Of a DNA stretch of 64,000 bases, positions 12,571 through 61,235 are shown piece after piece. This DNA is from Rudanella paleaurantiibacter (GTDB lineage Bacteria > Bacteroidota > Bacteroidia > Cytophagales > Spirosomataceae): contig NZ_WELI01000001.1 of assembly GCF_009184635.1 (NCBI RefSeq), positions 930,001-994,000 of the forward strand, written 5' to 3'. A program made the position numbers and the translations under genes. The stretch's first letter is position 1, and each line of letters opens with the position of its first letter. The notes under the pieces are model-generated. The model made no database searches. It was not told where the DNA came from and saw nothing but the letters and a program-made list of their open reading frames with translations.

Positions 12571-15500
12571 TTAACGAATCTTACGAACAACTACGGGGAC
12601 ACAGACATTGGTGGGGCAGGCGCAACTTTCCACCACTGCTACCGTCAGATCGCGTGGACAGGCGGGCTGCCCGTTGATCATCAGCCATACCCGTACCGTG
12701 TAGTTGCCCGGCAACAGACCCGTTGCTACTACGCCGTTGGCTGGGATCGCCGTTGGGGTGGCCGGTGTGGCCTGCGCGGCATTGAAGCTCGTGCCCGGCG
12801 ATACCTGATAGTAGTACCGGCCTGCCGTGCCCAGATTCACCAGTGTAATCTGACCATCGGCCTGTGGGTTGCTTCCTACGCAGCTGCTGTTTTTCACCAG
12901 AGCGGTGAACGAGGGTACAGCTGTTTCTTCAATCACAATTGGGCAGCAACCCTGACTGGGGCAGGCATTGGCCAACCCGCTATCAATGAGCACACTGTAG
13001 CTGCCGGGTAGGGTAGCCGTGAAGCTGCTGAGGGTGCCATCGGCAACGAGCATACTGCTCGTTGAGCCGGGGGCGGTGAGGTACCACTGGTAGCGGCTGT
13101 AGCCGGTAGGCGCATCCAATCGAATGGCGAACGGTTCTCCCTGACACACCTTGATGGGTACACTCAGGCAGGTTGTAACGTCAGACGTAGGATCGCCGGG
13201 GATTATTGCCGTGTTAAAGACAGTGCCTTCGCCGGTGATGCTGGCTGAGTAAGTGAGGGTAGCCGTGGCACCAGCGGGCAGGCTGGCAATAGCCCACTGT
13301 CCGCCGTTCAGGCCGGACGTAAAGCTGCCCGTCGAGACGCTCACAGTGCCGGGGATAATGGTCATACCCGCTGTGTGGGTGTCGCTCACCACCACGCCCG
13401 TGGCTGAACCAGGGCCTGTATTGGTCAGTACAATCGTGAAGCTAACTACGTCGCCTACCTGCGCTTGCCGTTTGCTAACCAGCTTGTTCAGCTCCAGATT
13501 AGGCAGTTCAATGGGCGTGTTTCCGGTTACGGTTACGCTACCCACGGCGGTACATTGGACAGACCCTGCCGAAGTAGTACAAGTTGCCGAGTAGAGGTTG
13601 CTACCAGCAACAGGTGTTACCACGATGCTGCTACCCGTCTGTCCGGTGTTCCAGTTGACTAAGCCAACACAACCCGAGACGGTGAGTGTTACGTTTTGGC
13701 CCACGGTGACCGTGTTGCTACTAGCGGCTACGGTAGCGGCTGGCATTGGTACCACTGTTACGGAGCCAACTGCCGTAGTGGCGCTGCCCGTCGTAGTGGT
13801 ACAAGTAGTCGTGTAGCTGGTGGTCTGGGTTAAGGCCGGGGTTACGAGCGTATTACCCGATGTGCCGTTGCTCCAGGCAACCGTACCCGCACAACCAGCG
13901 GCTGTGAGCGTAGCAGACGAACCATGACATACGGTAGCCGATGAAACAACCAGCGATGCCGGTGCTTCGGTGTTGACTACGATGCTGGCCGTTGTGAAGC
14001 AGCCGGGGCCGGTGGTACAGGTGGCTGAGTAGGTCTGGGTGGCCTGCATTGGCATGACGACGATGCTGCTTCCGGTGCTACCGTTGTTCCAGGCAACCGA
14101 GCCCGTGCAACCGGTAGCTGTCAAGGTGACGTTGCTGCCTGCGGTCACCAGCGTGGCGCTGGCTGAGAGGTTGAGTACGGGTTGTGGCAGTACCGTGACG
14201 GTGCCCGTAGCCGTAGCCGAGCAGCCCGCCGAGCTGGTGCCGGTGACCGAGTAGGTAGTCGTTGCAGTTGGCGTAACCACTATGGATGCTGTTGTGGCTC
14301 CCGTGCTCCAGAGGTAGCTGTTGGCTCCAGAAGCAGTAAGGGTGGCTGAGCTACCGGCGCAAACCGTGGCTGAGGTTACGGTCACGACGGGGGCCGGATT
14401 CTGTACCACGGTGGTGGTAGCTGTGCCCGAGCACCCAGCGGCCGAAGTCGCCGTTACCGAGTAAGTACCCGCTGCGCTCACTGAGATGGCAGCGGTGGTG
14501 GCTCCGGTGCTCCAGCGGTAAGTGGCCCCACCCGAGGCTGTGAGGGTGGTGGTTTGGCCCGCACAAATGCTCAGGCTGGTTGCACTGATGGTGGCTGTAA
14601 CAGCCGGGTTGACCGTTACCGTTCCCACGGCGAAGGTGGTCGAGGTGGTCGTCGTACAGGTGGCCGTGTAACTGGTAGTCTGTGTGAGGGCCGGGGTCAC
14701 CAGGGTGTTGCCTGATGTGCCGTTGCTCCACGTCACCGTACCCGCACAGCCAGCGGCCGTCAGGGTAGCCGACGAACCCGCGCAGATGGTGGCCGAGGTG
14801 ACCACCAAATTGGCGGGGGCTTCGGTGTTGACCACGATGGAAGCCGTGGTAAAGCAAGCGGGGCCGGTCGTACAGGTGGCCGAGTAGGGCTGGGTCGTTT
14901 GGGTTGGAGTTACGACGATGCTGCTTCCCGTACTGCCGTTGCTCCAGGTAACCGAGCCGGTGCAACCGTTGGCCGTCAAGGTCACGTTGCTACCTGCGGT
15001 CACCAGCGTGGCGCTGGCGCTCAGGTTGAGCACGGGTTGTGGTAGTACCGTCACCGTCCCCACCGCAAAGGTAGTCGAGGTCGTAGTGGTACAAGTAGCC
15101 GTGTAGCTGGTGGTCTGGGTTAAGGCCGGGGTGACGAGCGTGTTACCCGATGTGCCGTTGCTCCACGTCACCGTGCCCGCACAACCGGCGGCTGTGAGCG
15201 TAGCCGACGAACCATGACATACGGTGGCTGATGAGACGATCAGTGAAGCCGGTGCTTGAGTGTTAATCACAATCGAAGCCGTTGTAAAGCAAGCGGGGCC
15301 GGTGGTACACGTGACCGAGAAAGTCTGGGTGGCCTGCATTGGCATTACCACGATGCTTGCTCCGGTGCTACCGTTGCTCCAGGCAACCGTGCCCGTGCAC
15401 CCGGTAGCGGTCAGGGTGACGTTGCTGCCTGCGGTCACCAGCGTGGCGCTGGCTGAGAGGTTGAGTACTGGCTGAGGTAGTACTGTGACGGTGCCCGTAG

Positions 15501-18500: not shown

Positions 18501-20268
18501 CTGTGCCATTGTTAACGATTACAGTATACGTGTATACACCCGCTGTGGCAGGTGCGGCTACCGTACGGCTCGCTACCGTGCTGGCGGTGGGGCTGCTGAT
18601 ACCCGAACCACTCCAGGTGTAGCTGGTGCTGCCAGGTGTTGTATTACCGGCCGATACTGCTAACGTTACTGTGGTCCCCGGTGCTACGGTGCTGGGGGTA
18701 ATAGTGGGGTTGAGGTTGGTAGGTGTTGTACACGCTACGGGTGTACAGGCCGGCCCAGGGCCAAGCTCACACAACACAACGTTATCAATTAATAAACCGT
18801 CACGCTGCGCATCTTTAATACTGATCAATAAACCAAAGTCGACTGGAGTCTGACTATTGCCATCGGTTGTGAATGAAAGTTCAACCTGTGTCCACTGGAT
18901 CGCAGCGCAGTCTGAGGTAGTGTTGACCTGGTAATTGGTCCGTACCCAGTTGCCAACGACTCCTGCATTCTGTTCGAGGAAGAAATCAACTTTGCCGTCG
19001 GAGCCGCTAACAATGCTGTTGGGGCTCCATCCTGCAACTTTAGCTCTGAGAACATACCGTGTACAGCTTTTTAGAGGAAACTGTTCAAAGGTAGCTGGGG
19101 AGAGGCATTGATCTTCAGAACCATTGCGGATCCAGATCATCTTGTTGCCGTTGCTGTTGAGGTAGAAAATACCGTTGTAGTCTCCCTGGTCCTGGAAAGG
19201 GTTAGGGAAAGGGTTCGCCCAACCGCTCGGAGCTGCTTCGTTTCCTGTGGGTTGCGTATTATCTTTTTGGAGGAACGAAGCAGCTACACCTGCCACATTA
19301 TCATTGAATGTGTTAGTACCAGCTACAGTCTCAAAGTTTCCGTTCGGAATCAGGTTGGTACCGCAGGATGTGGATTGCGTAGGAATAGGAATAGTGCAAT
19401 TACAGCTCGCTGGCTTTACACTAATGTTGTCCAGAAAATAAGCCCAGATATCCCCTTGGGTGTCGCCGAAGGTTGTAAACTGGAGTATAGCACTCGAACC
19501 GGTTGCGGTGAAAGTGAACGTCTTTTGTTCCCATCGAACCGGGTTACCTGTTGAGCAAGGGTTGGTAGGGTCCGGGATTTTATCCGCCTGATTGACAGGA
19601 AAATCATTAGAATACGTGCCACCGCTCACGATTGCGGCATTCCAGCCACCACCATTCGGAATATCAACACAGGTACCTGATGGAGCCCGCCATTTCGCCC
19701 CGGGAGCAATGTAGAAACAAACCGTGTACTGCTTTCCACTCGTCAGGCCAGTTAAGGTCTGCGATATTCTGGTTTGCCCATTATTCTGCGTTAGGTAGCC
19801 GACCAGAAATTTAGTGCCGTCTTGTGGCTTATAACAAGTCGTAGACCCGCCCGAAAAGAACAAGCTGGGCCAATAGCCGTCGCCCACAGCTTGATTTGAT
19901 GTCCATGAGTCTAAGTCTGGAATATCAAAGTGAGCATCCGGGAGGTCGGGGGTGACGTAAAGGGGGGTATAATTATCCGATTCAAAGCTATTATTGATCA
20001 CCACGTTGGGTTCGGATGGGCACCCGCACGATTGCCCCCTTGCGTCAGAGGCCAATAGGCTAAGCAAGGCCAATCCGCAAACGTTGACGAGCATACACCA
20101 CCCTGAAAAAGTGAGCCCGTTTGTTCGGTGCATCCAACTGGTTTTCGGCCTAAATAGCCTAGTCCAGACCTTGTCGAAAGGACGTAAACTCCTAACGATT
20201 GTAAGAAGGGAGCCGATAAGCAGTTTAAGCCAGCGTGTATAGCTCCGAAAAGCGGAAATGTGTGTCAT
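12571..20268 (-). CDS. Giant secreted adhesin-like protein with about 18 Ig-like modules
   Basis: The product is about 2,565 aa. The start is uncertain. ATG 20268 gives a long basic N-terminal extension before the signal segment, and ATG 20133 (MHRTNGL) would start directly at it, with cleavage near DARGQS. The first 850 residues hold three jelly-roll-like NSFE/NGNFE/NPSFE domains of carbohydrate-binding type and Ig-like linkers. Then come about 18 modules of 65-75 aa in four recurring types (A: WSNGTSGNTLVTPALTQTTS; B: YRWSTGATTAAISVS; C: TASIVVTPTATTTYSV; D: GSTGSSIVV), mostly ordered D-A-B-C. A DUF11 domain and a Cys-rich end (CACPTNVCVPVVVRKIR) close it. No standard T9SS domain is visible. 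An adhesion or surface role is inferred. Confidence 0.8.
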   Translation of the reverse strand: MTHISAFRSYTRWLKLLIGSLLTIVRSLRPFDKVWTRLFRPKTSWMHRTNGLTFSGWCMLVNVCGLALLSLLASDARGQSCGCPSEPNVVINNSFESDNYTPLYVTPDLPDAHFDIPDLDSWTSNQAVGDGYWPSLFFSGGSTTCYKPQDGTKFLVGYLTQNNGQTRISQTLTGLTSGKQYTVCFYIAPGAKWRAPSGTCVDIPNGGGWNAAIVSGGTYSNDFPVNQADKIPDPTNPCSTGNPVRWEQKTFTFTATGSSAILQFTTFGDTQGDIWAYFLDNISVKPASCNCTIPIPTQSTSCGTNLIPNGNFETVAGTNTFNDNVAGVAASFLQKDNTQPTGNEAAPSGWANPFPNPFQDQGDYNGIFYLNSNGNKMIWIRNGSEDQCLSPATFEQFPLKSCTRYVLRAKVAGWSPNSIVSGSDGKVDFFLEQNAGVVGNWVRTNYQVNTTSDCAAIQWTQVELSFTTDGNSQTPVDFGLLISIKDAQRDGLLIDNVVLCELGPGPACTPVACTTPTNLNPTITPSTVAPGTTVTLAVSAGNTTPGSTSYTWSGSGISSPTASTVASRTVAAPATAGVYTYTVIVNNGTGCTATTTTSLTVVSVNPVIACVGNKLLNPSFEQGFSSGVFSISPPPSWTGGVSDQISNGAGFAAADGVGFGYTADAANPTLCQNVTVSTGSSYSLSYYAGVHQVLGQTVTLQYYNGTSAIGTAQSQPITHILESNGQFGGPYSLSIGAAPATATALRVCAVGLSGQGISGAAKIDALCLQQLPCITPSNVAASVTPNNVAPGTNVTLNTTASGTTAGVTTYIWSGPGISSPSATTIASRTVVAPTTAGTYTYTVVVSNGTGCTATATTNLTLQLPCALATTATPSTCTPATNQYTVSGTISLTSTIAGTATITDGTRSTTVTVPTGATSVAYSLTGLTSGTGSHTVVVNLPGCGSATATYSAPASCTVAATITVTSATVCFGNSATLTASGCAGTVAWSNGTTGNTLVTSALTQTTSYTATCTTASATTFAVGTVTVLPQPVINLSASATLVTAGSNVTLTANGCTGTVAWSNGSTGSSIVVTPTQTTQTYSATCTTGPACFTTASIVVNTEAPANLIVTSATICAGSSATLTAAGCAGTVAWSNGTSGNTLVTPALTQTTSYTATCTTTTSTTFAVGTVTVNPAVTATISAGSLSICAGQTTTLTASGGATYRWSTGATTAAISVSAAGTYSVTATSAAGCSGTATTTVVQNPAPVVTVTSATVCAGSSATLTASGANSYLWSNGATTASIVVTPTATTTYSVTGTSSAGCSATAVGTVTVLPQPVLNLSASATLVTAGSNVTLTATGCTWTVAWSNGSTGSSIVVMPMQATQMYSATCTTGPACFTTASIVINTQAPASLVVSSATVCHGSSATLIAAGCAGTVSWSNGTSGNTLVTPALTQTTSYTATCTTTTSTTFAVGTVTVNPAVTATISAGSMSICAGQTTTLTASGGATYRWSTGATTAAISVSAAGTYSVTATSAAGCSGTATTTVVLNPGPVVTVTSTTVCAGQSATLTASGAATYQWSTGANTASIVVAPTATTTYSVTGTSSAGCSATATGTVTVLPQPVLNLSASATLVTAGSNVTLTATGCTGTVAWSNGSTGASIVVMPMQATQTFSVTCTTGPACFTTASIVINTQAPASLIVSSATVCHGSSATLTAAGCAGTVTWSNGTSGNTLVTPALTQTTSYTATCTTTTSTTFAVGTVTVLPQPVLNLSASATLVTAGSNVTLTANGCTGSVTWSNGSTGSSIVVTPTQTTQPYSATCTTGPACFTTASIVVNTEAPANLVVTSATICAGSSATLTAAGCAGTVTWSNGTSGNTLVTPALTQTTSYTATCTTTTSTTFAVGTVTVNPAVTATISATSLSICAGQTTTLTASGGATYRWSTGATTAAISVSAAGTYSVTATSAAGCSGTATTTVVQNPAPVVTVTSATVCAGSSATLTASGANSYLWSTGATTASIVVTPTATTTYSVTGTSSAGCSATATGTVTVLPQPVLNLSASATLVTAGSNVTLTATGCTGSVAWNNGSTGSSIVVMPMQATQTYSATCTTGPGCFTTASIVVNTEAPASLVVSSATVCHGSSATLTAAGCAGTVAWSNGTSGNTLVTPALTQTTSYTTTCTTTTGSATTAVGSVTVVPMPAATVAASSNTVTVGQNVTLTVSGCVGLVNWNTGQTGSSIVVTPVAGSNLYSATCTTSAGSVQCTAVGSVTVTGNTPIELPNLELNKLVSKRQAQVGDVVSFTIVLTNTGPGSATGVVVSDTHTAGMTIIPGTVSVSTGSFTSGLNGGQWAIASLPAGATATLTYSASITGEGTVFNTAIIPGDPTSDVTTCLSVPIKVCQGEPFAIRLDAPTGYSRYQWYLTAPGSTSSMLVADGTLSSFTATLPGSYSVLIDSGLANACPSQGCCPIVIEETAVPSFTALVKNSSCVGSNPQADGQITLVNLGTAGRYYYQVSPGTSFNAAQATPATPTAIPANGVVATGLLPGNYTVRVWLMINGQPACPRDLTVAVVESCACPTNVCVPVVVRKIR

Positions 20269-20600
20269 ACCCGGAAGTCGATCAAGTATTTTTACCGTGA
20301 AAAGGCAAGGGTCAGGCAATGAATTGTCCTGCCGGAGTCGAATCAATTTCTATGCAAAGCAGAGGGGGAAATAAGCGAAGGGTGGTTATCGTGACTTTTT
20401 GGTACAAAAACCCAGCGCAGAGCCTCATAAAACAGGCGAGAATGGATGTAAGGCCTATTAGTAAAAATGGGGCCAGAAAAGAGCAGGGCGCATTAAGTAC
20501 CTAAAAGTTAGTACATTTATGGCCTAACAGCCCACTTTTTGCCGAATGGTTTAATCTAGGCTGTTACTCATTTACTTATACTTAACCTTACTCGTGATAT
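20269..20600. other. Intergenic region between divergent genes
   Basis: These 332 bases separate the giant protein gene and the histidine kinase gene, which point away from each other, so both promoters should be here. The best plus-strand candidate is TACATTTA near 20513 (one mismatch to TAnnTTTG). I see no RNA gene, repeat or conserved ORF. Confidence 0.4.
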
Positions 20601-51059: not shown

Positions 51060-52127
51060 ATGTATCCGATGGAAAAGCAACCCAAGACCTTTTGGGATCA
51101 GTTAAGTAACCTGCTCGTGCCCAAGCGGCAGTCGGGCGTGCCCGAGCCAATCAAAAGCGACCGGATTCTGCACGAGCTGATCCGTTGTTTTGAGGCCTCG
51201 CTCAACCGCGAAAGCATTGGGAACAGCCTGCTTTTTGATGCCCACTACATTGTCATTCTCCACCCGTCGAGCTATACCGAACGGCTGGCGGCTCTGCCTG
51301 TGATTGTCAACGAGGCCGTCAATGCGTTTTATGCCGCCATAGACCGGCGCAAGGGCGGAGACGACCGCATTGTGACCGTGGCCTCGCACTGGCAGTTTAA
51401 GTTTGGGCCGGGCACCGAGTTTGAAGGCCGCGCCATTGGCCCTGCCGATATTGAGGTGATTGGCTCGTTGACCGGGCATTCGCTCGAAATCGACCCCGGC
51501 CCCCGGCCGTCGGCAAACAGTAATCTGAAGGCTACGCGCAAGGTGAAAAACACGAACGTCTACGAAAAAATGGACGTGAACCTGCCCGCTTTTGGGCACA
51601 TCGACTTCCGCGAGTCGGGGGCGTTTGCCGTGCGTATCGACCCGGCCCGGTTGGCCCCCCCGGTGCCCGGCCCGGCTGTTACCGACGGGGTTGCATCAGC
51701 GAATGCCCCGGCCCCGCAGTCGGTGGCACCCGCCACCGCGCCCGGCCCAGTAGTGCCACCAGTAGCTCCGGTCCGGCCCGAACACCTGGCCCGGATTGAT
51801 TGCTACATGGCCGATCAGAACACCGAAGAAACCCACTGGATGAAAGACCGCGAAGTGGTTATTGCCCGGCATGAGCCCGACAATGGCGCGTTTGCCAATT
51901 ACATCCGGCTTCGGTCGCCCTACGTGTCGAACCCGCACGCCCGGATTCGGTACGATGCCTCCGCCGGGGTGTTTCAGCTGGCTTCGTTCAGCGGACACGA
52001 AACCCGCCTGAACGAGCAGATTGTGGCCCGCAGCGAACCGACCAACCCGGTTTGGGTGGAGTTGCCGAGCCCGTCGCAGATTTTGCTCAATGGGGTTGTT
52101 ACGCTCACGTTTACCCGCACCGACTGA
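51060..52127 (+). CDS. FHA-domain protein with DUF3662-like N-terminus (FhaA-like)
   Basis: The product is 355 aa (or 352 aa from the ATG at 51069). The N-terminal domain (about residues 30-175, with FDAHYIVILHPSSYTERLAAL) resembles the DUF3662 domain of actinobacterial FhaA. A Pro/Ala-rich linker runs from about 200 to 238 (PAPQSVAPATAPGPVVPPV). The C-terminal FHA-like domain has SNPHARIRYD in place of the usual SxxHxxI and RLNEQ. FHA domains bind phosphothreonine, so a kinase substrate or scaffold role is likely. It opens the PP2C-kinase-SEDS/PBP cluster. Confidence 0.8.
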   Translation: MYPMEKQPKTFWDQLSNLLVPKRQSGVPEPIKSDRILHELIRCFEASLNRESIGNSLLFDAHYIVILHPSSYTERLAALPVIVNEAVNAFYAAIDRRKGGDDRIVTVASHWQFKFGPGTEFEGRAIGPADIEVIGSLTGHSLEIDPGPRPSANSNLKATRKVKNTNVYEKMDVNLPAFGHIDFRESGAFAVRIDPARLAPPVPGPAVTDGVASANAPAPQSVAPATAPGPVVPPVAPVRPEHLARIDCYMADQNTEETHWMKDREVVIARHEPDNGAFANYIRLRSPYVSNPHARIRYDASAGVFQLASFSGHETRLNEQIVARSEPTNPVWVELPSPSQILLNGVVTLTFTRTD

Positions 52128-52130
52128 CGT

Positions 52131-52214
52131 ATGATTGATGTGATTATTGCGCTCGTGTTAACCGTGTTTGTGGGCGTGCTGCTGGTGCGGCACTTCCTAA
52201 ATCTGCCCCAATAA
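52131..52214 (+). CDS. 27-aa single-span membrane peptide
   Basis: An ATG at 52131 opens 27 codons (MIDVIIALVLTVFVGVLLVR, then HFLNLPQ) ending in TAA. It begins 3 bp after the FHA stop and ends 11 bp before the PP2C start, so it is translated within the operon. Its near-complete hydrophobic helix fits a small membrane protein. No family is recognised, and chance cannot be excluded at this length. Confidence 0.55.
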   Translation: MIDVIIALVLTVFVGVLLVRHFLNLPQ

Positions 52215-52225
52215 CGCCCTGCCGC

Positions 52226-53284
52226 ATGACGACGCTTTTAGAGATAGCTGGTCAGACCGACGTGGGTCAGAACCGGCACGACAATCAGGATACGTATCTG
52301 GCCGGGCCGCTCTGGACCGACCATAGTGTGCTGTTGGCGGTGATCGATGGTGTGGGCGGATACGCGGGCGGAGCCGAGGCTGCAGCCCTGGCGCGGGAGT
52401 CGATTGGGCAGTACATGGCTACACCTACGGGCGACACACTCACCATGCTCCGCGAGGCCGTGGTGTTTGCCAATAACCAGATTGTGCAGCAACGGCAGCA
52501 AAACCCGGCCCTGGCCCGGATGTGTTGTGTGCTGACGGTTGTGGTGGCCGATGCGCAGCTCGGGCGCCTGTACTACGTACACGTGGGCGACACCCGGCTG
52601 TACCGATTCCGGCAGGGCCAACTCGAAAAAATCACCCACGACCACTCACTCGTGGGCGTACGCGAAGACGCCAATCAGCTCACCGAACGGGAGGCCATGC
52701 GGCATCCGCGCCGGAACGAAATTCTTCGCGATGTGGGCTCCATGCCTCATCGGGTCGATGATCCCGATTTTCTGGAATCGGGTGAAAGCGATTTTGAGCC
52801 GGGCGACGTGCTGTTGCTGTGCAGCGACGGCCTGACGGATATGCTGACGCGGGCTCAACTGGTGGAGGTACTTGGTCGGCCGATGCCGGTAGCCGAACAG
52901 ATTGAGGCCCTGATTCAAGCGGCCAACGAAGCGGGTGGGCACGACAATATTACGGTGGTGCTCGGTCGTTATTCAGCACCGGAGGGAGCAGAAATAGCCC
53001 CGGCCCTTCCGATAGATGACTCCCGGTCAGCTACGGCCTCGATACGGGTGGGAACCCAGGGGCTGATGCAATCGGAGGCCACTCTGGCCGCTGAGGCTTT
53101 ACCCGAACAGCCGCCCAAACGCCGGTGGGGTGCACTCGTGCTTGTTGTGTTGGGGGTATTGGCTGGGGTACTCTGGTGGCAACTTAGCCCCTCCGAACCT
53201 ACACCGCGCCCCCAACCTGTACGAGCCGACTCGGCCCGAACCCCGAAACCATTCACAACGATTGACTCAACTCGAACGCCTTGA
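52226..53284 (+). CDS. PP2C-family Ser/Thr protein phosphatase, membrane anchored
   Basis: The product is 352 aa. Metal-binding motifs of PPM phosphatases are present: RHDNQD near residues 18-23, VIDGVGGYAGG, the YVHVGDTRLYRF strand, LLCSDGLTDML and GGHDNITVVL. A single membrane helix (ALVLVVLGVLAGVLWW, about residues 294-311) and a short Pro/Thr-rich tail follow, as in actinobacterial PstP. It should reverse phosphorylation by the two kinases encoded directly downstream. The stop is 5 bp before the first kinase ATG. Confidence 0.93.
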   Translation: MTTLLEIAGQTDVGQNRHDNQDTYLAGPLWTDHSVLLAVIDGVGGYAGGAEAAALARESIGQYMATPTGDTLTMLREAVVFANNQIVQQRQQNPALARMCCVLTVVVADAQLGRLYYVHVGDTRLYRFRQGQLEKITHDHSLVGVREDANQLTEREAMRHPRRNEILRDVGSMPHRVDDPDFLESGESDFEPGDVLLLCSDGLTDMLTRAQLVEVLGRPMPVAEQIEALIQAANEAGGHDNITVVLGRYSAPEGAEIAPALPIDDSRSATASIRVGTQGLMQSEATLAAEALPEQPPKRRWGALVLVVLGVLAGVLWWQLSPSEPTPRPQPVRADSARTPKPFTTIDSTRTP

Positions 53285-53289
53285 CGACT

Positions 53290-54855
53290 ATGCCAACCGT
53301 TAGTTTCAATACCAATTTTCCGGGCTATGACGTTTTGGGCGAGATAAACCGCAGCAACGCCCGCGTGCTCAAAGCCCGGCATATTGCCACCGGCGATCTG
53401 GTGGCCATCAAACACTTTTCGCTCAATACGGACGCCGATACCTTACGCCGTTTCGAGCGCGAATCGGCCATTATGACCCGAATGAGCCACCCCAACATTG
53501 TGCGGGTGCGCGAGGTCCGGCTCGATACCGACCTGCCTTATCTGGTGATGGACTACGTGGAAGGGGGCAGTTTGCGGCATTTGCTCAGCACGCAACATAA
53601 CCTGCCCGTCGATGTGACTATCCGGCTGGGGTTGCAAATGCTCGATGTGTTCCGGCTCATTCACACGCAGGGCATTATCCACCGCGATCTGAAGCCCGAA
53701 AACATCCTGTACCGGCAGCTGTCGAGTGGGGAGCTACACTTTCTCTTGACTGATTTTGGCGTGGCGCGTCTGCACGAACAGCCCGTTACGGTAACCGGGC
53801 AGTCGCTGATGACGTACGAGTACGCGGCCCCTGAGCAGTTCGATAATCCCCGTCAAATCGACGAGGCCGCCGATTACTACGCTCTGGGCGTGGTGCTGTA
53901 CGAATGCCTGACCGGTCGCGTACCGTTTGCCATGCGCGATGAGAGCGGGCTGGTCACGTTTATGAACATGGTGCTCAGTACCCCACCCCCTCCGCCTGTG
54001 CTGCCTTCGGGCGAAGCCCTGCCGGGGAGCATGGTGGCTCTGCTGGATCAGTTGCTGACCAAAAATTGCCGCGAACGGCTACATAATCCCGATGTGGCCA
54101 AGCTGGCTCTCAAACAGGCTGAGGTGGAGCAGTTATACCATCAGCAAAAACCCGTTTCGGGGCAAACGGTGGCGTTTCGGCCCCCGGTACGGGAAAAAGC
54201 CGCGCCCGAGCCCCCCGTTCGTCCGGCATCGAACACGGATAGAGAGAGCATAGCGGTACCTCGTCGGAGCCGTTCGGTATGGCCAATGACTGCGTTGGTA
54301 GGGGCTTTGTTGCTGACCGGACTGTGGGTGTACTGGTATTTCTCCCCGACAGCATCTCGGTCGGTACGGCCCGGTTTGGCCGGTGTGAGCCGTACCGAAA
54401 ACCCCGAAAGTGACTCGGAAACGTTTGAATTTTCAGACCTGACAGTGTCGGCTGCCGAAAAACGGGCGCAGGAAGAGCGTCGGCGACAACAGGCACTCGA
54501 AGCGGCCCGCAAACGCTATCAGGAAGAGGTTAGCCGGGCAACCAAACAGCTCGAAGCAACTGCCTTTGGCGGAAAAGTAGGCTTTTTCGGGGGCGTGAAA
54601 GGCTTATCGGTGAAGCTGAACAATCCGTCGGCGGTCACGTTTAAGTCGGTGGCGGTGCAGGTGACGTATGTGAAAGATAATGGCGAAACGTTTAAATCGC
54701 CGATCATGTACTTCAACAATATCGGCCCCGGCGGCACCATCACCCGTCGGGCACCCGACAGCCAACGGGGCATCCGGTTCAGTGCCCGTGTGCTTCGGGC
54801 CGATGCCGCCCCGCCCGACAGCCTTGCTTCAACCTCCTCGTTGCCCAACCCCTGA
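53290..54855 (+). CDS. Membrane Ser/Thr protein kinase with extracytoplasmic domain
   Basis: The product is 521 aa from ATG 53290. Kinase hallmarks are Lys41 (VAIKHF), HRDLKPEN with catalytic Asp133, DFG at 155-157 and APE at 180-182. The glycine-rich loop is degenerate (GEINRSNARV instead of GxGxxG). One membrane helix lies at about 329-349. The external part starts with a charged coiled segment (EKRAQEERRRQQALEAARKR) and ends in a beta domain of FxLYD type (SVKLNNPSAVTFKSVAVQV). There are no PASTA repeats. The neighbouring kinase is a close paralogue, and their kinase domains share long identical runs. Confidence 0.92.
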   Translation: MPTVSFNTNFPGYDVLGEINRSNARVLKARHIATGDLVAIKHFSLNTDADTLRRFERESAIMTRMSHPNIVRVREVRLDTDLPYLVMDYVEGGSLRHLLSTQHNLPVDVTIRLGLQMLDVFRLIHTQGIIHRDLKPENILYRQLSSGELHFLLTDFGVARLHEQPVTVTGQSLMTYEYAAPEQFDNPRQIDEAADYYALGVVLYECLTGRVPFAMRDESGLVTFMNMVLSTPPPPPVLPSGEALPGSMVALLDQLLTKNCRERLHNPDVAKLALKQAEVEQLYHQQKPVSGQTVAFRPPVREKAAPEPPVRPASNTDRESIAVPRRSRSVWPMTALVGALLLTGLWVYWYFSPTASRSVRPGLAGVSRTENPESDSETFEFSDLTVSAAEKRAQEERRRQQALEAARKRYQEEVSRATKQLEATAFGGKVGFFGGVKGLSVKLNNPSAVTFKSVAVQVTYVKDNGETFKSPIMYFNNIGPGGTITRRAPDSQRGIRFSARVLRADAAPPDSLASTSSLPNP

Positions 54856-54860
54856 TAGTC

Positions 54861-56150
54861 ATGTCGACGGTTAATTTTAACACACACCTGCCCGGTTATG
54901 AGGTGCTGGCCGAACTGGGCCGGGGCAACACCCGCGTGCTCAAAGCGCGGCACACGGCTACGGGCGAGGTGGTGGCTATTAAACAATACGCTTTCCCGGC
55001 CGACCCCGATACGCTCCGGCGGTTTGAGCGGGAGTCGGTCATTATGACCCAACTGAATCACCCCAATGTAGTGCGGGTGCGTGAGGTGCAACTCACCGCA
55101 GCCATGCCGTACGTGGTGATGGATTATGTAGAAGGGGGCGACGTGCGCGGGCTGTTACGCCAGCAGGGGCCGTTGCCTATTCCAATGGTGATCCGGTTAG
55201 GCTTGCAATTGACCGAGGCTTTTCGGGCGGTACACCCGCTCCGGGTGGTTCACCGCGACCTAAAACCCGAAAATATTCTGTACCGAAAGCTGGTGAGTGG
55301 AGAGCTGCATGTGCTGCTTACTGATTTTGGAATTGCCAAATTCTGGTCGGACGACAACGCCCGCACCCGCACCGGGCAGTCGATGATGACCTGTGAGTAT
55401 GCGGCCCCCGAACAGTTCGATAATCCGCGTCAGATTGACGAGGCTGCCGATTACTACGCCCTGGGTGTGGTGCTGTACGAGTGCCTCACCGGGCAGGTGC
55501 CCTTTCGGCTGGAGCATGAAACGGGGTTGGCGTATTTCATGCAGCAAGTGCTTACGGCGCCCATACCCGCACCGGTACGGCCATCGGGCGAGCCCATTCC
55601 GCTCCGCCTGCAAAACCTGCTCATGCGCTTGTTGGAACGGAATCCGCAGGAGCGCCTTCGGAACCCCGACGAACTGGAACTGGCCCTCGAACAAAGTCGG
55701 GTAGAGCATTTGCAGGCCAATTGGTCGGCGAAAGAACCCGCCGGATACGGTCCCAAAACAAGGATTGGCCCAACGGTCCAGCGGTTACCCGATGCGGTGG
55801 TGCCTGTCGATGAGCCACGTACCAGCCCGTGGGCGTGGTGGGGCATTGGGGGTGGGGTTGCCGCTGCGGCTCTGGCCCTGTTTCTGTACACCCGCCCCGC
55901 CGACGGTAATGCCCAAAACCAGACGCTTCCGACTGATTCGACCGCCGTTGTAGCTGTCGACAGTACGCTGGGGGAGCCTGAATCAAACGCTATTTCGCCC
56001 GATACCGCTACGGAGGGGGAGGGTGATACCGAACGTGAGAACGAGGCCGGCCCCCTTGCGACCGAAACGACCTCGGAGGAAATTCCTCAGGAGCAGACAG
56101 CGGTACCCGATTCGGTTGGGGAAGCCGCCCCCGACACGACACAAAATTAG
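54861..56150 (+). CDS. Membrane Ser/Thr protein kinase, paralogue of the preceding one
   Basis: The product is 429 aa. The kinase domain spans about residues 12-275 with a normal loop ELGRGNTRV, VAIKQY, HRDLKPENILYRK, TDFGIAKFW and YAAPEQFDNPRQIDEAADYY. The last stretch is identical to the first kinase, so the pair is a tandem duplication. A membrane helix lies at about 322-342. The tail (345-429) is a low-complexity Thr/Glu/Ser/Asp segment with no domain. It follows its paralogue by 5 bp and precedes the SEDS/PBP gene by 18 bp. Confidence 0.92.
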   Translation: MSTVNFNTHLPGYEVLAELGRGNTRVLKARHTATGEVVAIKQYAFPADPDTLRRFERESVIMTQLNHPNVVRVREVQLTAAMPYVVMDYVEGGDVRGLLRQQGPLPIPMVIRLGLQLTEAFRAVHPLRVVHRDLKPENILYRKLVSGELHVLLTDFGIAKFWSDDNARTRTGQSMMTCEYAAPEQFDNPRQIDEAADYYALGVVLYECLTGQVPFRLEHETGLAYFMQQVLTAPIPAPVRPSGEPIPLRLQNLLMRLLERNPQERLRNPDELELALEQSRVEHLQANWSAKEPAGYGPKTRIGPTVQRLPDAVVPVDEPRTSPWAWWGIGGGVAAAALALFLYTRPADGNAQNQTLPTDSTAVVAVDSTLGEPESNAISPDTATEGEGDTERENEAGPLATETTSEEIPQEQTAVPDSVGEAAPDTTQN

Positions 56151-56168
56151 ACGTCAGCTTATTCCTGC

Positions 56169-59100
56169 ATGATGAATGAACGATTGTTTCCGGCCGGGCG
56201 CGGTTATCTGCTCGGAGCTACGGTGCTGCTGTTGCTGTTGTTTACCCGCCTGTATATCAACCGGGTGCCGGTGCTTCGCGAGGCCGAACAGGCCTACCTG
56301 ACCGGCAACCGGCTCAACCTCGAACCGGGTCTGGGGGGCGAGGCTATCCGGCGGCTGTTTCGGCAAGGAAATTACCTGTCGGATAGCCGCGATGTTGGTC
56401 TGATTGCCGATTCACTGCCCGCCAAACTGCGGCAGGAGGGAACCCCCGACAATTTGGGCACCATCAACAAACGGGCCTTTGCCATTAGGACGCCCCTGCC
56501 GTGGAAAAGCCCTATTGGGGGCGATAACTTTGCCAGCCGACTGCGGGTGTCCCGGCAACTGATTGGCTTCGATTCGGTCAGTTACGTGCGGGAATTGAAA
56601 AATCCGCGCCCTTACCCGTCGGTGGTAGGAGCGGGTGGCCTACAAGTGTCGGGGCAGGTGCTCGACAACGCCGAACAGCCCCGCCCACTGGCCGACGTAC
56701 TTGTGCAACTTAAGCGTTACGACGCCCGGCGTAGCGACGCCCGGCGTAGCGACTCGCTTCTGTACGCCCGCACCGATGCCGACGGCCGGTTTGTGTTTGG
56801 GGGCCTGCAACCTGAGGGGTCGTACAGCGTATTACCACTTCGGCCGGGGTTTGAATTTGGCGGTCGGCGGGGCACAAGTAACCTGACCCGTTCACTCGAT
56901 TTTCAGTTTTCGGCCCGCCCGCACACCCTGCGGCTCATTGGCCCGGTGGCTTACGGGCAGCTCAAAAGCGACGGAGCTTTCACGGTGCGTACGCCCACGC
57001 AGTTTGCGGGGCTGTTCTGGCTACAGGTGGGTTTGTTTTTACTGGCCTTCTGGGCGGTGTATGGCTTCTGGTCGATTCGACGGTTTCGGCCCGACCCGCT
57101 GTTACTGCCGGTGCTTATGTTGCTCACCGGATTGTCGTTGCTTACGTTGATGGCGATTCAAGACCCGTTGCAGGACACGTTTTACGGTGGCCAAACCATG
57201 CTGGGTGTGGGGCTGGGTTTGCTGGGGCTGGCGTTGGTGTCGCAACTGAACGTAGGTCGCTTTTACACCCGCTGGTGGTTCGATCCGCTGGTGAACCTGC
57301 GCCGTCGGTCAACGTTTCGGCTCACGGGTTGGACCTGGCTCGTGCTGGCCTTTGCGCTGGCGGGCCTCACGCTCGCTTTCGGCACCGGCCCCGAAGGGAG
57401 TGGGGTGCGGGTCAACCTGAACGTAGGTGGCTTGCTTTTTCAACCGAGCGAACTCACTAAATACCTCATTCTGCTGTTTCTGGCGGGCTTTTTTGCCGCC
57501 CACGAAGAGCAGCTTCGCACCCTGCCCGACCTGCGCTGGCGCTGGCGTGTGAGTGCCGGGGTGTTTATGGGGGTGAGTGGGCTCATGGGGCTGTACCTGT
57601 TGCTTGGCGACATGGGCCCGGCTTTGGTGGTAGGCTTCACGTTTCTCTTGTTTTACACCATTGCCCGCCAAACGCTGGGTATCACGCTGCTCACGGGTGT
57701 AGCGTATGGCGTAGCACTTTGGTTACTGCCGGTGGGGCTGGCTACCGGGGTTGCGGTGATTGTGGCCCTCGGCCTGCTGGTGCTGACGGGCCATGCCCGG
57801 TCGGCCACGCCCGCGGGTTGGCTGGCCCTGGCCGCCGAAGGGCCGGTGTTGCTCGTGCTGGTAATGGCTGCTTTTGCCTTCGGCGATCAGATTCCGGTGG
57901 TGGGCGACCGCCTGGCCGACCGCAAAGCCATGTGGCTTAGCCCGTGGAATAACGACGTGTATGGGGGCGACCACCTTGCGCATAGCCTCTGGACGCTGGC
58001 CACCAGCGGCTGGACCGGGCAGGGCCTTGGCAAAGGGTTTGCAACGGCCATGCCTGCCGCACATACCGATATGGTGCTGCCGAGCCTGGCCGAAGAACTG
58101 GGCTGGACCGGGCTGGTGACCATTTGTTTGCTCTTGTTTATTCTCCTGCACCGAACCCTGCTCCACGCCCGGCGGGCGGGTCAGCCGTTTAGTTTTTACC
58201 TCTGCGCGGGTATTGCGCTGGCTACGGGCGTTCAGTTTTTTTTGATTGCGGGCGGCTCATTGGGGCTGTTTCCGCTCACGGGCATTTCGGTGCCTTTTCT
58301 GAGCTACGGTAAAGTGTCGCTCATTATCAACCTGACGGCTATGGGCGTGGTGTTTGCTCTCTCGACCCGGCCCGGCGATGTGCAACAGCATGTGTATCTG
58401 GAAAAACAGTACGACCCTGTGCTCGCTACCGGGATTGCCGGTTTTCTGATCGGGATGCTGGTGCTGATTGGGCGGGCGGGCGAGGTGGCCCTGCTCAACT
58501 GGTCCGACTATATTGTGCGGCCGAGCCGGGTGCTGAGTCGCGATGGCTTGCCCGTTTACAGCTATAATCCGCGTATCAACCGCCTGACCGATGTATTGGC
58601 GGCCGGTACCCTCTACGACCGGAACGGGCAGGTGCTGGCTACAAGTTCGCCCGATACCGTCCGCCGGAATCTGCCCCGGCTTCGGCAGGCGGGCCTCGAC
58701 CCAGCCGACCTGACTGCCCTCAGCCGACGGCGGCTGAAGCGGTTTTACCCCTTTGGTGAGCAGCTGTTTTACTGGGTTGGCGATGCCAATACCCGGTTGT
58801 TCTGGGCGCAACAAAACGGCTACTTTGCCGAAGCATCGCACCTGAGCGACCTGCGGGGCTTTGATAATCATCCCCGTCAAAATACACTTCTCACCACCCG
58901 CTACCGGCCCGACCGCTTTACGGCCCCCGTTGACCGGGCGTTGACCCTCCCCCTGTACGATTACCGTGAACTGGCCCCGGCCATCCGGTCGGGAATCGAC
59001 GGGCAGGTGGTGGAGGAATACCGGGCCCGCAACCGTAATCTGTGCCTGAGTGTCGATGCGGCCTTGCAGGTTGAATTACAGAAAGCACTGGCCCAGTCGG

Positions 59101-60152
59101 AGTTCAACGACAAACGGATGTCGGTGGCGGTGCTCGATGCCGCTTCGGGTGAGGTGCTGGCGTCGGCCGTGTACCCGTTGCCCAACCTGAAACGTCCCGA
59201 CGAGCTGGCCCTGCCCGACCGTGACCGGCTGGCTCTGCCGTATCTGGTCACCGAGCGCGACCTGGCCCTGACCTACCCAACAGCCCCCGGCTCCACGGCC
59301 AAGATTATGACCGCTACGGCCGGGCTGAACAAACTGGGTATTGAGGGGGCCGACGTACGGTTTCCGGTAAGCTGTGGCGAAATTATTCGTCGGGGTAAGG
59401 TCGAGAGTGAGCCTTGCGGGGGGGCGGTGGATATGCGGCAGGCCATTGTTCGGTCGAGCAACGTGTATTTTATCCGTCTGGCCAATGAATACGCCCTGGA
59501 CAATGAAATGGCGAACCTTTACCTGGCTACGGGCATGAACATCGACTACGTGGGTGGCTACTCGTTTACCGACCCGCACACCGCTACCGACCGGGCCGAG
59601 ATTATGAAACACTGGCACGATTCGTCGTTTGTGGTTCGTCGGAAACTGTACAACGATTTGCGCTACCCCCGGCGTTACCGGAGCGAATTTTCGGGGCTGG
59701 CCTGGGGGCAGGGGCAACTCACGGCTACGCCTATTGCGCTGGCCCGGATGGCCGGGGCCGTGGCCCACGGGGGCATTATGCAGCCCTCGCGTTACGTAGT
59801 TCGGCGGGCGGGCAAGCGGGTGGCTTTGGACAAAGGCGTGCCGCTGATGCGCGACCGGGCCTACGCCGACCGGCTCCGGGAGTTTATGATTGAGCAATCG
59901 AATCCGGGTGGACGGGTCAAGATCGAAGTCGCTAAAGTGGCGGGTAAAACCGGTACACCTGAGCGCATTGTCATGGGCGAAAAGCAAAACGATGGCTGGT
60001 ACGTCTTCTTCGCGCCTACGCCCGACGGCCGCTCCCAAACGGTCACCTGTATCCGTATCGAACTCACGGAGTCGTCGGCCGATGCGGTGAAGCTGGCCAA
60101 TATAGCCGTTGCGCCTATCCTGAAAGCGCGGGGGTATTTGGGGACGTATTAA
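56169..60152 (+). CDS. RodA/FtsW (SEDS) glycan polymerase fused to a class B penicillin-binding transpeptidase
   Basis: The product is 1,327 aa. After a first membrane helix (about 12-30), an external segment holds a small carboxypeptidase-regulatory-like domain (about 159-235, VSGQVLDNAEQPRPL to GSYSVLPLRPG). A multi-helix SEDS domain spans about 275-785, with VGGLLFQPSELTKYLIL, LLLGDMGPALVVGF and HTDMVLPSLAEELGWTG. A linking helix leads into a class B PBP from about residue 805 (YDRNGQVLATS). The transpeptidase has STAK with Ser1042, SSN (1096-1098) and KTG (1260-1262). It should both polymerise and crosslink peptidoglycan. RodA and PbpA are normally separate proteins. Nothing indicates a frameshift at the joint. 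Confidence 0.92.
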   Translation: MMNERLFPAGRGYLLGATVLLLLLFTRLYINRVPVLREAEQAYLTGNRLNLEPGLGGEAIRRLFRQGNYLSDSRDVGLIADSLPAKLRQEGTPDNLGTINKRAFAIRTPLPWKSPIGGDNFASRLRVSRQLIGFDSVSYVRELKNPRPYPSVVGAGGLQVSGQVLDNAEQPRPLADVLVQLKRYDARRSDARRSDSLLYARTDADGRFVFGGLQPEGSYSVLPLRPGFEFGGRRGTSNLTRSLDFQFSARPHTLRLIGPVAYGQLKSDGAFTVRTPTQFAGLFWLQVGLFLLAFWAVYGFWSIRRFRPDPLLLPVLMLLTGLSLLTLMAIQDPLQDTFYGGQTMLGVGLGLLGLALVSQLNVGRFYTRWWFDPLVNLRRRSTFRLTGWTWLVLAFALAGLTLAFGTGPEGSGVRVNLNVGGLLFQPSELTKYLILLFLAGFFAAHEEQLRTLPDLRWRWRVSAGVFMGVSGLMGLYLLLGDMGPALVVGFTFLLFYTIARQTLGITLLTGVAYGVALWLLPVGLATGVAVIVALGLLVLTGHARSATPAGWLALAAEGPVLLVLVMAAFAFGDQIPVVGDRLADRKAMWLSPWNNDVYGGDHLAHSLWTLATSGWTGQGLGKGFATAMPAAHTDMVLPSLAEELGWTGLVTICLLLFILLHRTLLHARRAGQPFSFYLCAGIALATGVQFFLIAGGSLGLFPLTGISVPFLSYGKVSLIINLTAMGVVFALSTRPGDVQQHVYLEKQYDPVLATGIAGFLIGMLVLIGRAGEVALLNWSDYIVRPSRVLSRDGLPVYSYNPRINRLTDVLAAGTLYDRNGQVLATSSPDTVRRNLPRLRQAGLDPADLTALSRRRLKRFYPFGEQLFYWVGDANTRLFWAQQNGYFAEASHLSDLRGFDNHPRQNTLLTTRYRPDRFTAPVDRALTLPLYDYRELAPAIRSGIDGQVVEEYRARNRNLCLSVDAALQVELQKALAQSEFNDKRMSVAVLDAASGEVLASAVYPLPNLKRPDELALPDRDRLALPYLVTERDLALTYPTAPGSTAKIMTATAGLNKLGIEGADVRFPVSCGEIIRRGKVESEPCGGAVDMRQAIVRSSNVYFIRLANEYALDNEMANLYLATGMNIDYVGGYSFTDPHTATDRAEIMKHWHDSSFVVRRKLYNDLRYPRRYRSEFSGLAWGQGQLTATPIALARMAGAVAHGGIMQPSRYVVRRAGKRVALDKGVPLMRDRAYADRLREFMIEQSNPGGRVKIEVAKVAGKTGTPERIVMGEKQNDGWYVFFAPTPDGRSQTVTCIRIELTESSADAVKLANIAVAPILKARGYLGTY

Positions 60153-60189
60153 AAGAGTGAATGAGTGAGTGCGGGGCGCGAATAGAAAT

Positions 60190-60303
60190 GAATGAATAGT
60201 GAATAATGGGTTGTGGATTATTTTGTTGATTGTCAGTTTATTCGCTATTCATTACACATTACACATTACACATTACACATTACACATTACACATTACACA
60301 TTT
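60190..60303. repeat. Imperfect hairpin and CATTACA heptamer tandem repeat before the second FHA gene
   Basis: AATGAATAGTGAATAA (60190-60206 region) is inverted at about 60238-60255 with one mismatch. From 60250 the sequence CATTACA is repeated seven to eight times up to about 60303. The tract ends 9 bp before the FHA ATG, so it would be in the leader or promoter of that gene. It belongs to the same general class as the other tandem-repeat hairpins here. Confidence 0.75.
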
Positions 60304-60311
60304 GATTGTGC

Positions 60312-61235
60312 ATGGCTTTTATCGATAATCTGAAACAGTTTTTTGGGTTGGGTTCGGGGGCGGCTTCGTCTGGGCCAGATGGCGCACGGCCGGAACCGGT
60401 ACCCGCCGAATCGCCTGAGCAGCGGCCGATTGTTCCGCCGGTGGCCCCCCCGCCCGATTTGGCGCGGGGCACTATGCCCGCCACTCCGCAGCAACGCGAG
60501 CAGTTGTACCGGTTTGTGGTGGATAAACTGGCGGCTTACGTGAGCGAAACCGATGGCTTGCCGGTGGGCCTGACCTTGTGGATTCGGTGCGCAAGCCCGG
60601 AAGAGGAAGACCGCATGGGAGTAGCCCTGTACGCGGGGCAGCCGGGGCATTTCAAGGCCGAATTGAGCCGACATTTAGCCAATCAGTACATCAAACTGGC
60701 TCCGGCCTGGCAGTTCGACTGGCAGTTTGTACGTGATGCCCTTCCGCCCGACTGTACGTACCAACAGGGGAATCTGGGCCTGACGGTGGTGCATCCGCAG
60801 AGTAGTCAGCCGTTGCGGGCGCGCTTGCGGACCCTAACAGGCCAAACCATACAGGAAACGTATCTGCTCGACCCGGCGGTGCAGGCTGAGTTTCGGATTG
60901 GCCGGGGCGACATGGTGCAAACGGCATCGGGGCGGGTTCGTACCAACGACATCGCCTTTGTTGACTCGGGCGAACCTCATTTTGACCCGCAGCGGGGCGA
61001 GCCCAACCTGAGTGTGAGCCGTCAACACGCTACTATCCGGTACGATGCGGCCAACCGGCAGTACCGACTCTTTGCCGATGCCGGAGGGCTGCCAGCCAAC
61101 GGCAATAAAACAAAAATCCTGCGCGTAGATGATACCGTGGAGCGCGCCGACCTGCCGGGCGTGGGGTATCGCCTGGCCCATGCCGATCAGATTGAGCTCG
61201 GGGGCGAAGCAAAGCTGTTGATTGAGATGCTGTAA
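60312..61235 (+). CDS. FHA-domain protein closing the kinase cluster
   Basis: The product is 307 aa from ATG 60312 (MAFIDNLKQFF). A Gly/Pro/Ala-rich linker (residues 17-60) leads to a middle domain (about 65-185) of unknown type with LPVGLTLWIRCASPEEEDRM. The C-terminal FHA domain (about 195-305) has FRIGRGD and NLSVSRQHATIRYD, the canonical GR and SxxH motifs. It ends in a TKILR...ELGGEAKL segment. It should read phosphothreonines made by the kinases. The 5' leader contains the heptamer repeat. Confidence 0.88.
   Translation: MAFIDNLKQFFGLGSGAASSGPDGARPEPVPAESPEQRPIVPPVAPPPDLARGTMPATPQQREQLYRFVVDKLAAYVSETDGLPVGLTLWIRCASPEEEDRMGVALYAGQPGHFKAELSRHLANQYIKLAPAWQFDWQFVRDALPPDCTYQQGNLGLTVVHPQSSQPLRARLRTLTGQTIQETYLLDPAVQAEFRIGRGDMVQTASGRVRTNDIAFVDSGEPHFDPQRGEPNLSVSRQHATIRYDAANRQYRLFADAGGLPANGNKTKILRVDDTVERADLPGVGYRLAHADQIELGGEAKLLIEML

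Follow-up and report, generated by a model that had tools for sequence, protein, structure and literature searches.

In Bacillota, the PASTA-domain kinase PrkC and its partner Stp1, that is, a Hanks kinase and a PP2C phosphatase, control wall growth. A larger gene set, fhaA-fhaB-pstP-rodA-pbpA-pknA-pknB, is described in a passage of PMC6554272 as conserved throughout Actinobacteria, with pknB-fhaA present in some Firmicutes. Proteins that hold a SEDS polymerase and a class B penicillin-binding protein (PBP) in a single open reading frame (ORF) are, as such, already in print: a passage of PMC10449877 cites the Rhodococcus sp. RHA1 genome for natural examples and reports that an engineered RodA-PBP2 fusion is active. 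Here, we describe a unit of seven genes, all on the + strand, at positions 51060-61235 of a 64,000-nucleotide stretch of the Rudanella paleaurantiibacter genome (6.72 Mb; positions 930001-994000 of contig C12; the whole stretch is referred to below as the window). The unit probably specifies an accessory peptidoglycan synthase that reversible threonine phosphorylation would switch; its SEDS and PBP parts are kin to actinobacterial RodA/PbpA and, as judged from their sequences, would form a third SEDS/PBP lineage beside RodA/PBP2 and FtsW/FtsI. No description of such a unit in Bacteroidota or Acidobacteriota was found in the open full-text literature of PMC (subscription journals and preprints lie outside this scope), and the part of PMC8262863 that was consulted holds nothing on the unit or on natural SEDS-PBP fusions. 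The genes of the unit are as follows:

51060-52127, + strand: FhaA, 355 residues; N-terminal domain distantly FhaA_N/DUF3662-like, proline-rich linker, C-terminal FHA domain
52131-52214, + strand: micropeptide of 27 residues, hydrophobic, probably a single-span membrane peptide
52226-53284, + strand: PP2C phosphatase with a C-terminal membrane span at residues 302-320 (Pfam, hydropathy)
53290-54855, + strand: Ser/Thr kinase 1, one membrane span and an extracytoplasmic tail of ~170 residues without PASTA domains (Pfam, hydropathy)
54861-56150, + strand: Ser/Thr kinase 2, one membrane span and an acidic tail without PASTA domains (Pfam, hydropathy)
56169-60152, + strand: SEDS-class B PBP fusion, 1327 residues; span, CarboxypepD_reg-like insert, SEDS polymerase, span, transpeptidase
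60312-61235, + strand: FhaB, 307 residues; N-terminal domain distantly FhaA_N-like, C-terminal FHA domain

The gaps between these genes are, 5' to 3', 3, 11, 5, 5, 18 and 159 bp, which bears out the initial annotation of this stretch (seven co-directional genes, tightly spaced, with a longer last gap). The start of kinase 1 was taken at the in-frame ATG at 53290; the ORF caller opens the frame at a TTG at 53281.

Like the actinobacterial locus, the unit combines two FHA proteins, a PP2C, two kinases and a SEDS protein and class B PBP of the same lineage, and it places FhaA first and the PP2C after it, as in A. oris (by annotation) and Tsukamurella (by profile). It differs in that its SEDS and PBP are fused, whereas they are separate genes in the four actinobacterial loci and the one Bacillota locus compared; in that its kinases carry no PASTA domains and have no resolved tie to PknA/PknB; in that its second FHA protein stands last and has an N-terminal domain of its own; in the additional micropeptide; and in the presence of further SEDS proteins in the host genome. 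The synthase genes precede the kinases in Actinobacteria, whereas the fusion lies after or between the kinases in the unit. The PrkC-Stp1 pair differs in its PASTA-based sensing and includes neither FHA proteins nor a SEDS-PBP. With the natural fusions of PMC10449877 the unit shares a polymerase and a transpeptidase in one ORF; the passage concerned gives no locus, phylum survey or phospho-control, whereas the fusions described here make up a clade that spans Bacteroidota and Acidobacteriota and are accompanied by an FHA/PP2C core.

Descent of the synthase

Pfam recognizes FTSW_RODA_SPOVE (5.5e-40) and Transpeptidase (2.9e-22) in a single frame of the fusion, in which a first span (residues ~12-30) and a long insert precede the SEDS part (~310-734), a second span (750-768) and the transpeptidase (984-1292). 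The insert contains a CarboxypepD_reg-like domain (residues 159-229; 28.9 bits, below the 32.3 cut-off) that is absent from the initial annotation. By alignment, SEDS residues Glu428, Lys431 and Asp634 are equivalent to Glu114, Lys117 and Asp262 of E. coli RodA, and the PBP motifs, aligned to E. coli PBP2, are STAK at 1042, SSN at 1096 and KTG at 1260. We take Asp262 of RodA to be the catalytic Asp, and the roles of Glu114 and Lys117 are presumed likewise. The SEDS Asp and Glu and the SxxK, SxN and K(T/S)G motifs are kept in all 20 aligned fusions; the SEDS Lys site is Lys in 17 of the 20 and Arg in the other 3. Searched against the PDB, the fusion profile matches best an entry named "Penicillin-binding protein A" (3un7, 9.4e-42), presumably PbpA of M. 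tuberculosis, which is only slightly ahead of MrdA (1.1e-40).

Trees were built for the SEDS part (55 rows), the PBP part (53 rows) and both concatenated (52 rows), all unrooted, with 20 fetched fusions picked for spread; the second copies of the acidobacterial genome G541 (a partial ORF) and of G148 are absent from all three. The concatenated tree leaves out one other Nocardia PBP, the SEDS proteins of Streptantibioticus and Streptomyces BHT-5-2 (no partner gene), and the partnerless Monoglobus RodA, B. velezensis SpoVE, FtsW of G544 and FtsI of G541. The fusions form one clade with support of 100/100 in the SEDS tree and again in the PBP-only tree. In the SEDS tree, a branch with 100/99 support has on one side the fusions, five actinobacterial SEDS proteins and an FHA-linked SEDS of Monoglobus and on the opposite side every RodA and FtsW row, those of the host among them. 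We could find no adjacent PBP gene for one of the five actinobacterial SEDS proteins, the plasmid-borne one of Streptantibioticus. The concatenated tree likewise sets the fusions, four actinobacterial pairs and the Monoglobus pair apart from RodA/PBP2 and FtsW/FtsI (100/99), and the sole actinobacterial FtsW/FtsI control, from Tsukamurella, groups with FtsW/FtsI. Approximately unbiased (AU) tests reject both other groupings of the fusions, that with RodA/PBP2 at p 8.8e-5 and that with FtsW/FtsI at p 1.6e-4, and for the sampled set we reject on this basis an origin in which the host's RodA/PBP2 or FtsW/FtsI had become fused. Thus, the kinship of the synthase with actinobacterial RodA/PbpA that had been proposed earlier is upheld by the SEDS and concatenated trees and by the AU tests, and in the sampled set the sequence relationships indicate that the parallel with the actinobacterial locus is, at least for the synthase, one of homology.

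These results bear on two other accounts of the locus. Convergence, in which the host's RodA/PBP2 or FtsW/FtsI was fused and then joined by unrelated signaling genes, could appeal to the kinase slot, which was possibly filled more than once, so that recruitment seems to happen; with both placements rejected by the AU tests, with locus PP2Cs that are distinct from the hosts' other PP2Cs, and with a gene order shared by two phyla (see below), we regard it as extremely unlikely. Recent horizontal transfer of the actinobacterial locus into the host lineage would fit the similar types of parts and the placement of FhaA first and PP2C next in A. oris and Tsukamurella. In the concatenated tree, however, the fusions make up one deep clade (100/100) with long internal branches, spread across Acidobacteriota and several Bacteroidota groups, which argues that the unit is old; the kinases and the relative order of synthase and kinases also differ from those of Actinobacteria, and recent transfer is very unlikely. 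The initial annotation had offered just these two origins, transfer or convergence in Bacteroidota, and neither sits well with so deep a clade over two phyla. The opposite outcome, with each gene nearest to unrelated Bacteroidota paralogues and no synteny in relatives, was sought and was not found for SEDS, SEDS+PBP or PP2C.

Unfused relatives outside Actinobacteria come from Monoglobus pectinilyticus (Clostridia; plasmid record L160, 2428-7849), where an FHA gene stands directly before adjacent SEDS and PBP genes that, unlike those of the unit, are unfused and group with the actinobacterial pairs (99/97). No kinase or PP2C was found there by annotation or profile within 12.5 kb. A 767-residue protein with no Pfam match at E 0.01 precedes the FHA gene.

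Conservation of gene order

A scan of genome contigs gave 29 fusion loci, 12 of them from acidobacterial metagenome-assembled genomes (MAGs) at 29-33% identity over the part present. Close relatives of the window fusion occur in Rudanella sp. (L044, 78%) and in Fibrella, Fibrivirga, Spirosoma, Larkinella and Fibrisoma. Six of the 12 acidobacterial loci (L054-L058, L064) have FhaA-PP2C-kinase-SEDS/PBP-FhaB in the same order and on the same strand, as scored with five profiles; five more (L059-L063) are cut by contig ends and show a partial, matching order, and L053 has the last four genes with no FhaA within 5.7 kb upstream. Among Bacteroidota, 31 loci had enough flank (15 and 14 scanned loci, the plasmid locus L101 and the window; L036 and L044 were excluded as cut), and in 25 of these FhaA, PP2C, fusion and FhaB are ordered on one strand when kinases are disregarded. 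The exceptions include L038 (FhaB at a distance of 7.6 kb; no PP2C, kinase or FhaA found in the 24 kb), L039 (no FhaA at the locus) and L091 (FhaB on the opposite strand); three further ones are taken up in the Discussion. The contig of L038 is titled Flavobacterium sp. SUN052, and its fusion is 78% identical to that of the window and Spirosoma-family-like; the Flavobacterium label may be wrong. The conserved order for which the initial annotation had suggested a search is thus present in Bacteroidota and Acidobacteriota, and its recurrence in two phyla argues that the arrangement is not due to chance.

The position of the kinases varies. One or two lie inside the unit in the Spirosoma family and in L048, they lie on the flanks in L082, L084, L088-L090 and L096, and they are found some kb upstream in L081 (~8 kb) and L087. 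L087 (7262-11416, from the single-contig genome G328), which is counted among the 25 ordered loci, carries PP2C, SEDS and transpeptidase in one ORF of 1384 residues; we kept this triple fusion as real because the frame is continuous where a gene boundary sits elsewhere. A kinase-WD40 protein is encoded upstream of it. An apparent SEDS-PBP-FHA protein in L063 was rejected as a true fusion: model coverage ends at 1011 of 1118, unrelated letters precede FhaB, and a frameshift in the metagenome assembly is the most likely explanation.

FHA proteins, phosphatase and kinases

The FHA domain of FhaA scores 18.3 bits in Pfam (E 0.0031; cut-off 20.7) and rises above the cut-off, to 21.7 bits, in the genome search, and that of FhaB scores 15.6 bits (E 0.022), below the cut-off there and in the genome search. 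AlphaFold models of the two proteins, both of only moderate quality (pTM 0.53 for FhaA and 0.55 for FhaB), have best Foldseek FHA matches at E 2.0e-7 and 3.1e-6, respectively; the Rv0020c FHA domain matches FhaA at 9.1e-6, and the FhaA FHA domain 3oun matches FhaB at 1.4e-4. R270, S290 and H293 of FhaA and G197, R198, S236, R237 and H239 of FhaB are invariant in 10 rows each. Both proteins are therefore predicted to carry the FHA fold with its Arg/Ser/His phosphothreonine-binding residues, a prediction that rests on the models and the alignments together.

The N-terminal domains are more distant. The initial annotation had called FhaA DUF3662-like; Pfam finds no FhaA_N match in the window FhaA, and some support comes from profile comparison and from sub-threshold FhaA_N matches in acidobacterial homologues (23.1 and 22.9 bits in two FhaA proteins and 14.9 bits in one FhaB; cut-off 25). 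When N-terminal profiles were aligned with four actinobacterial FhaA proteins and set against the maxima of 20 shuffles each (range 14.4-15.9), the window FhaA scored 27.6 (shuffled maximum 15.7; hhalign probability 30.5%), the window FhaB 23.2 (15.4; 11.7%), the acidobacterial FhaA 23.3 (9.2%) and the acidobacterial FhaB 34.5 (75.9%). In full-length comparisons of the FHA proteins, only the FHA domains align. The N-terminal domains of FhaA and FhaB do not match each other above noise (scores 13.5 and 12.0), none of the 50 listed Foldseek matches for either protein covers this domain by name, and the FhaB profile finds only weak matches among PDB sequences (best E 0.038, a designed protein). 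On these sequence comparisons, the homology of the FhaA N-terminus to actinobacterial FhaA_N is suggestive only.

The window PP2C matches PP2C_2 (4.9e-13) and reaches 188 bits with the Stp1 model, below its cut-off of 230. Its hydropathy profile shows one C-terminal span and a second peak within the catalytic domain, which we read as a core strand. The PP2C tree comprises 41 rows: 20 locus PP2Cs, 17 other PP2C rows and four PstP. Of 19 loci chosen from a list of 35 places (locus PP2Cs included), 18 gave a row and G179b gave none, and some of the "other" rows represent one gene twice (G328a and b are identical; G162a and b, and G280a and b, are nearly so). In the tree, all 20 locus PP2Cs fall into a single clade (100/99), separate from the other PP2C rows and from PstP.

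Both kinases match Pkinase (3.8e-47 for kinase 1 and 1.3e-45 for kinase 2), and hydropathy places their C-terminal spans, one in each, at residues 332-350 (in the 524-residue numbering from the TTG start) and 324-342, respectively. They are 63% identical over 284 residues, as a tandem duplication would give. No PASTA match was found in the two window kinases, in one acidobacterial kinase or in four further full-length related kinases; Pfam here agrees with the initial annotation, which had described the window kinases as lacking PASTA domains. In a kinase tree of 53 rows, the in-locus kinases of Bacteroidota form one clade (11 rows, 100/100) and the acidobacterial locus kinases a separate one (5 rows, 100/99); most f4/f5 flank kinases form a third (6 rows, 100/98), which is joined by another G162 kinase (95/92), and the kinase FLup_G416 and the upstream kinases of G179 and G328 fall elsewhere. 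PknA and PknB have their own clade (97/95). The strongly backed branches force a separate origin for the flank kinases only, and more than one in-locus origin is not required. Judged from these placements, the kinase slot would seem replaceable. The tails of kinases and phosphatases vary among lineages, and in one acidobacterial locus (L064:2704-4368) the span of the PP2C is followed by a right-handed beta-helix (Beta_helix 1.3e-11, NosD 1e-5), so that the phosphatase may be the sensor there.

Distribution

A protein search (E 1e-30 or better) finds the fusion in 36 of 150 genomes of the host's family (35 of the 134 near-complete ones). With a profile of 12 fusions (E 1e-120 or better), it is found in 15 of 395 Bacteroidota genomes, 10 in the host's class and 5 outside. 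Of 297 genomes from the phylum to which the acidobacterial MAG L053 belongs, 7 have it, L053 itself counted; viral contigs, scanned once with the fusion profile, gave no match. Since the fusion was not found in 114 of the 150 family genomes (99 of the 134 near-complete ones), the family can dispense with it. All 13 fusion-bearing genomes searched (G000, G004, G162, G179, G182, G248, G328, G416 and G541-G545) hold two further SEDS proteins and class B PBPs. In the host these are an FtsW on contig C23 and a PBP2-RodA pair on contig C1, so that the separate rodA and pbp2 that the initial annotation had proposed looking for are present, together with ftsW. The unit is also carried by a 137-kb plasmid of Spirosoma oryzicola (L101, NZ_CP089545.1), where it lies near a response regulator-histidine kinase pair. 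From the further SEDS proteins in 13 of 13 genomes and the plasmid copy, we conclude that the unit is accessory. The host has three Hanks kinases at E 1e-10 or better, two of them in the unit; one FHA protein at E 0.01 or better, in the unit; and two PP2C_2 proteins, one of which is in the unit.

Second, divergent copies, 43-45% identical, occur in two Spirosomataceae genomes (L090:7057-11178 in G139 and L091:6529-10494 in G148). In the concatenated tree, the G139 second copy falls with the fusion of Bacteroidota group f4 (95/89), a sign of transfer inside the phylum.

Such a distribution would also be expected of a backup synthase that is induced only at a particular stage or under stress, or that is less affected by cell-wall inhibitors, and for which the phospho-genes would act mainly as an on-switch for assembly or expression and not as moment-to-moment growth control. 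The patchy spread in the family and the phylum, the two further SEDS proteins in every fusion-bearing genome searched, the plasmid copy and the divergent second copies all speak for it. This account overlaps with the phospho-switched accessory synthase that we favor and differs from it in the timing of the enzyme's work; we consider it somewhat unlikely, though deserving of real weight.

Of the 150 family genomes, 37 have FhaA, and every one of the 36 that carry the fusion is among them. It lies ~80 kb from the fusion in G142 and ~8 kb away in G113, compared with 4 kb in the window, and in G056 (L039), whose PP2C and kinases are in place, it is on another contig. Sets of FHA, PP2C and kinase genes are known from other systems, such as the threonine phosphorylation of type VI secretion, and the FHA proteins, PP2C and kinases of the unit might thus control another process of this kind, with the synthase as a chance neighbor. 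The off-locus FhaA genes of G142 and G056 would suit this idea. Against it stand the core order kept across phyla, the presence of FhaA in every fusion-bearing family genome and the joining of PP2C, SEDS and PBP in a single ORF, and we find it improbable.

Micropeptide and flanking sequences

Of the 25 Bacteroidota loci with FhaA and PP2C on one strand, 23 have by an automatic test a hydrophobic micropeptide ORF between these two genes; a 24th (L084) was recognized by eye, reading to the end of the stretch viewed, and L093 is without any. The micropeptide ORF, counted from the first start, spans 22-49 residues across Bacteroidota loci. Among eight sequences of equal length, one-base codon differences are synonymous in 194 cases and non-synonymous in 83 (pairwise counts, hence not independent). 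A candidate is present in three of the nine acidobacterial loci examined (L056, L058, L060); in most of the remaining ones the FhaA and PP2C genes overlap or come close to doing so.

Promoter and terminator scans gave no excess over shuffles. The 159-bp gap before fhaB contains a perfect array of the heptanucleotide CATTACA (7.6 copies, 60250-60302), adjoined by a 16-nt inverted repeat (60191-60206/60238-60253, 94% complementary); length-variable control of fhaB by the array is possible. Downstream, a gene for a PIN-domain protein (PF13470; 61239-61670, - strand) converges on fhaB, with 3 bp between them. Farther off, the window has a tandem repeat at 1910-2300 (127-bp unit, 3.1 copies, 95% matches) and, on the - strand at 12571-20346, an ORF of 2591 residues that contains a 435-bp repeat (14612-15483) and may encode a repetitive surface protein.

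Discussion

A scheme for the unit can be drawn from its parts. A single membrane protein would hold the SEDS polymerase and the class B transpeptidase at a fixed 1:1 ratio. The kinases, which span the membrane and vary in their extracytoplasmic tails, would read an envelope signal and phosphorylate cytoplasmic sites, whether on themselves, on FhaA/FhaB, on loops of the synthase or on a partner in precursor supply; FhaA and FhaB would bind the resulting phosphothreonines, thereby bringing the synthase and its precursor supply together or setting them free, and the PP2C would reset the system. We infer the catalytic activity, the phosphorylation events, the direction of control and the signal from the make-up of the unit, and we call the synthase "phospho-controlled" in this same sense. 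A passage of PMC6180346 describes mycobacterial FhaA as binding phosphorylated CwlM and the phosphorylated pseudokinase domain of MurJ, and by analogy the FHA proteins of the unit may couple the synthase to precursor supply.

Several observations weigh against this reading or against parts of it. In the PBP-only tree, the branch that would unite the fusions with actinobacterial PbpA is weak (80/48), even though the order there (fusions, actinobacterial PbpA, FtsI+PBP2) agrees with that of the SEDS tree, and an unrelated, long-branch Nocardia PBP groups with PbpA (89/71). Tree sampling covers Bacteroidota, Acidobacteriota, a few Actinomycetota and Bacillota, and E. coli, with several long rows, and because the trees are unrooted, "sister" status hangs on the root. 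PstP forms its own clade in the PP2C tree and is not placed as nearest to the locus PP2Cs; the locus kinases fall in three places, in a tree that shows no resolved tie to PknA/PknB and excludes none. The FHA and FhaA_N matches in Pfam lie mostly under the curated cut-offs, and the N-terminal hhalign probabilities are low (9-76%). The acidobacterial loci are MAG contigs. Finally, two Bacteroidota loci (L083, L085) have no PP2C or kinase within ~19 kb, the paralogue L086 has a kinase only, with neither FHA protein nor PP2C, and G118, the one FhaA-bearing family genome of the 37 not counted with the fusion, has FhaA and PP2C at a contig end, with no fusion found elsewhere in the assembly.

A one-to-one match of all parts with the actinobacterial locus is accordingly not supported, given the placement of kinases and PP2C in their trees and the suggestive relation of the FhaA N-terminus. 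Of the interpretation first given to this locus, the kinship of the synthase, the synteny, the separate rodA and the absence of PASTA domains are supported; transfer or convergence, and the correspondence of every part, are not. More tentatively, and at less than even confidence, we suggest a third ancient SEDS/class B PBP lineage, distinct from both elongasome and divisome and coupled to FHA and PP2C proteins, which would have become the main growth synthase of Actinobacteria and, in Bacteroidota and Acidobacteriota, a fused accessory enzyme with interchangeable kinases and sensors.

On the reading that we favor, a locus regarded as the growth control of Actinobacteria becomes a wider design, with hints that it divides into a constant core (FhaA, PP2C, SEDS-PBP, FhaB) and a kinase input that can be replaced. 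A 1:1, single-protein synthase that works beside the normal elongation and division enzymes would allow a direct test of how phosphothreonine is read on a SEDS-PBP, and culturable hosts such as Spirosoma, Larkinella and Fibrella would avoid the essentiality that hampers work in Actinobacteria.

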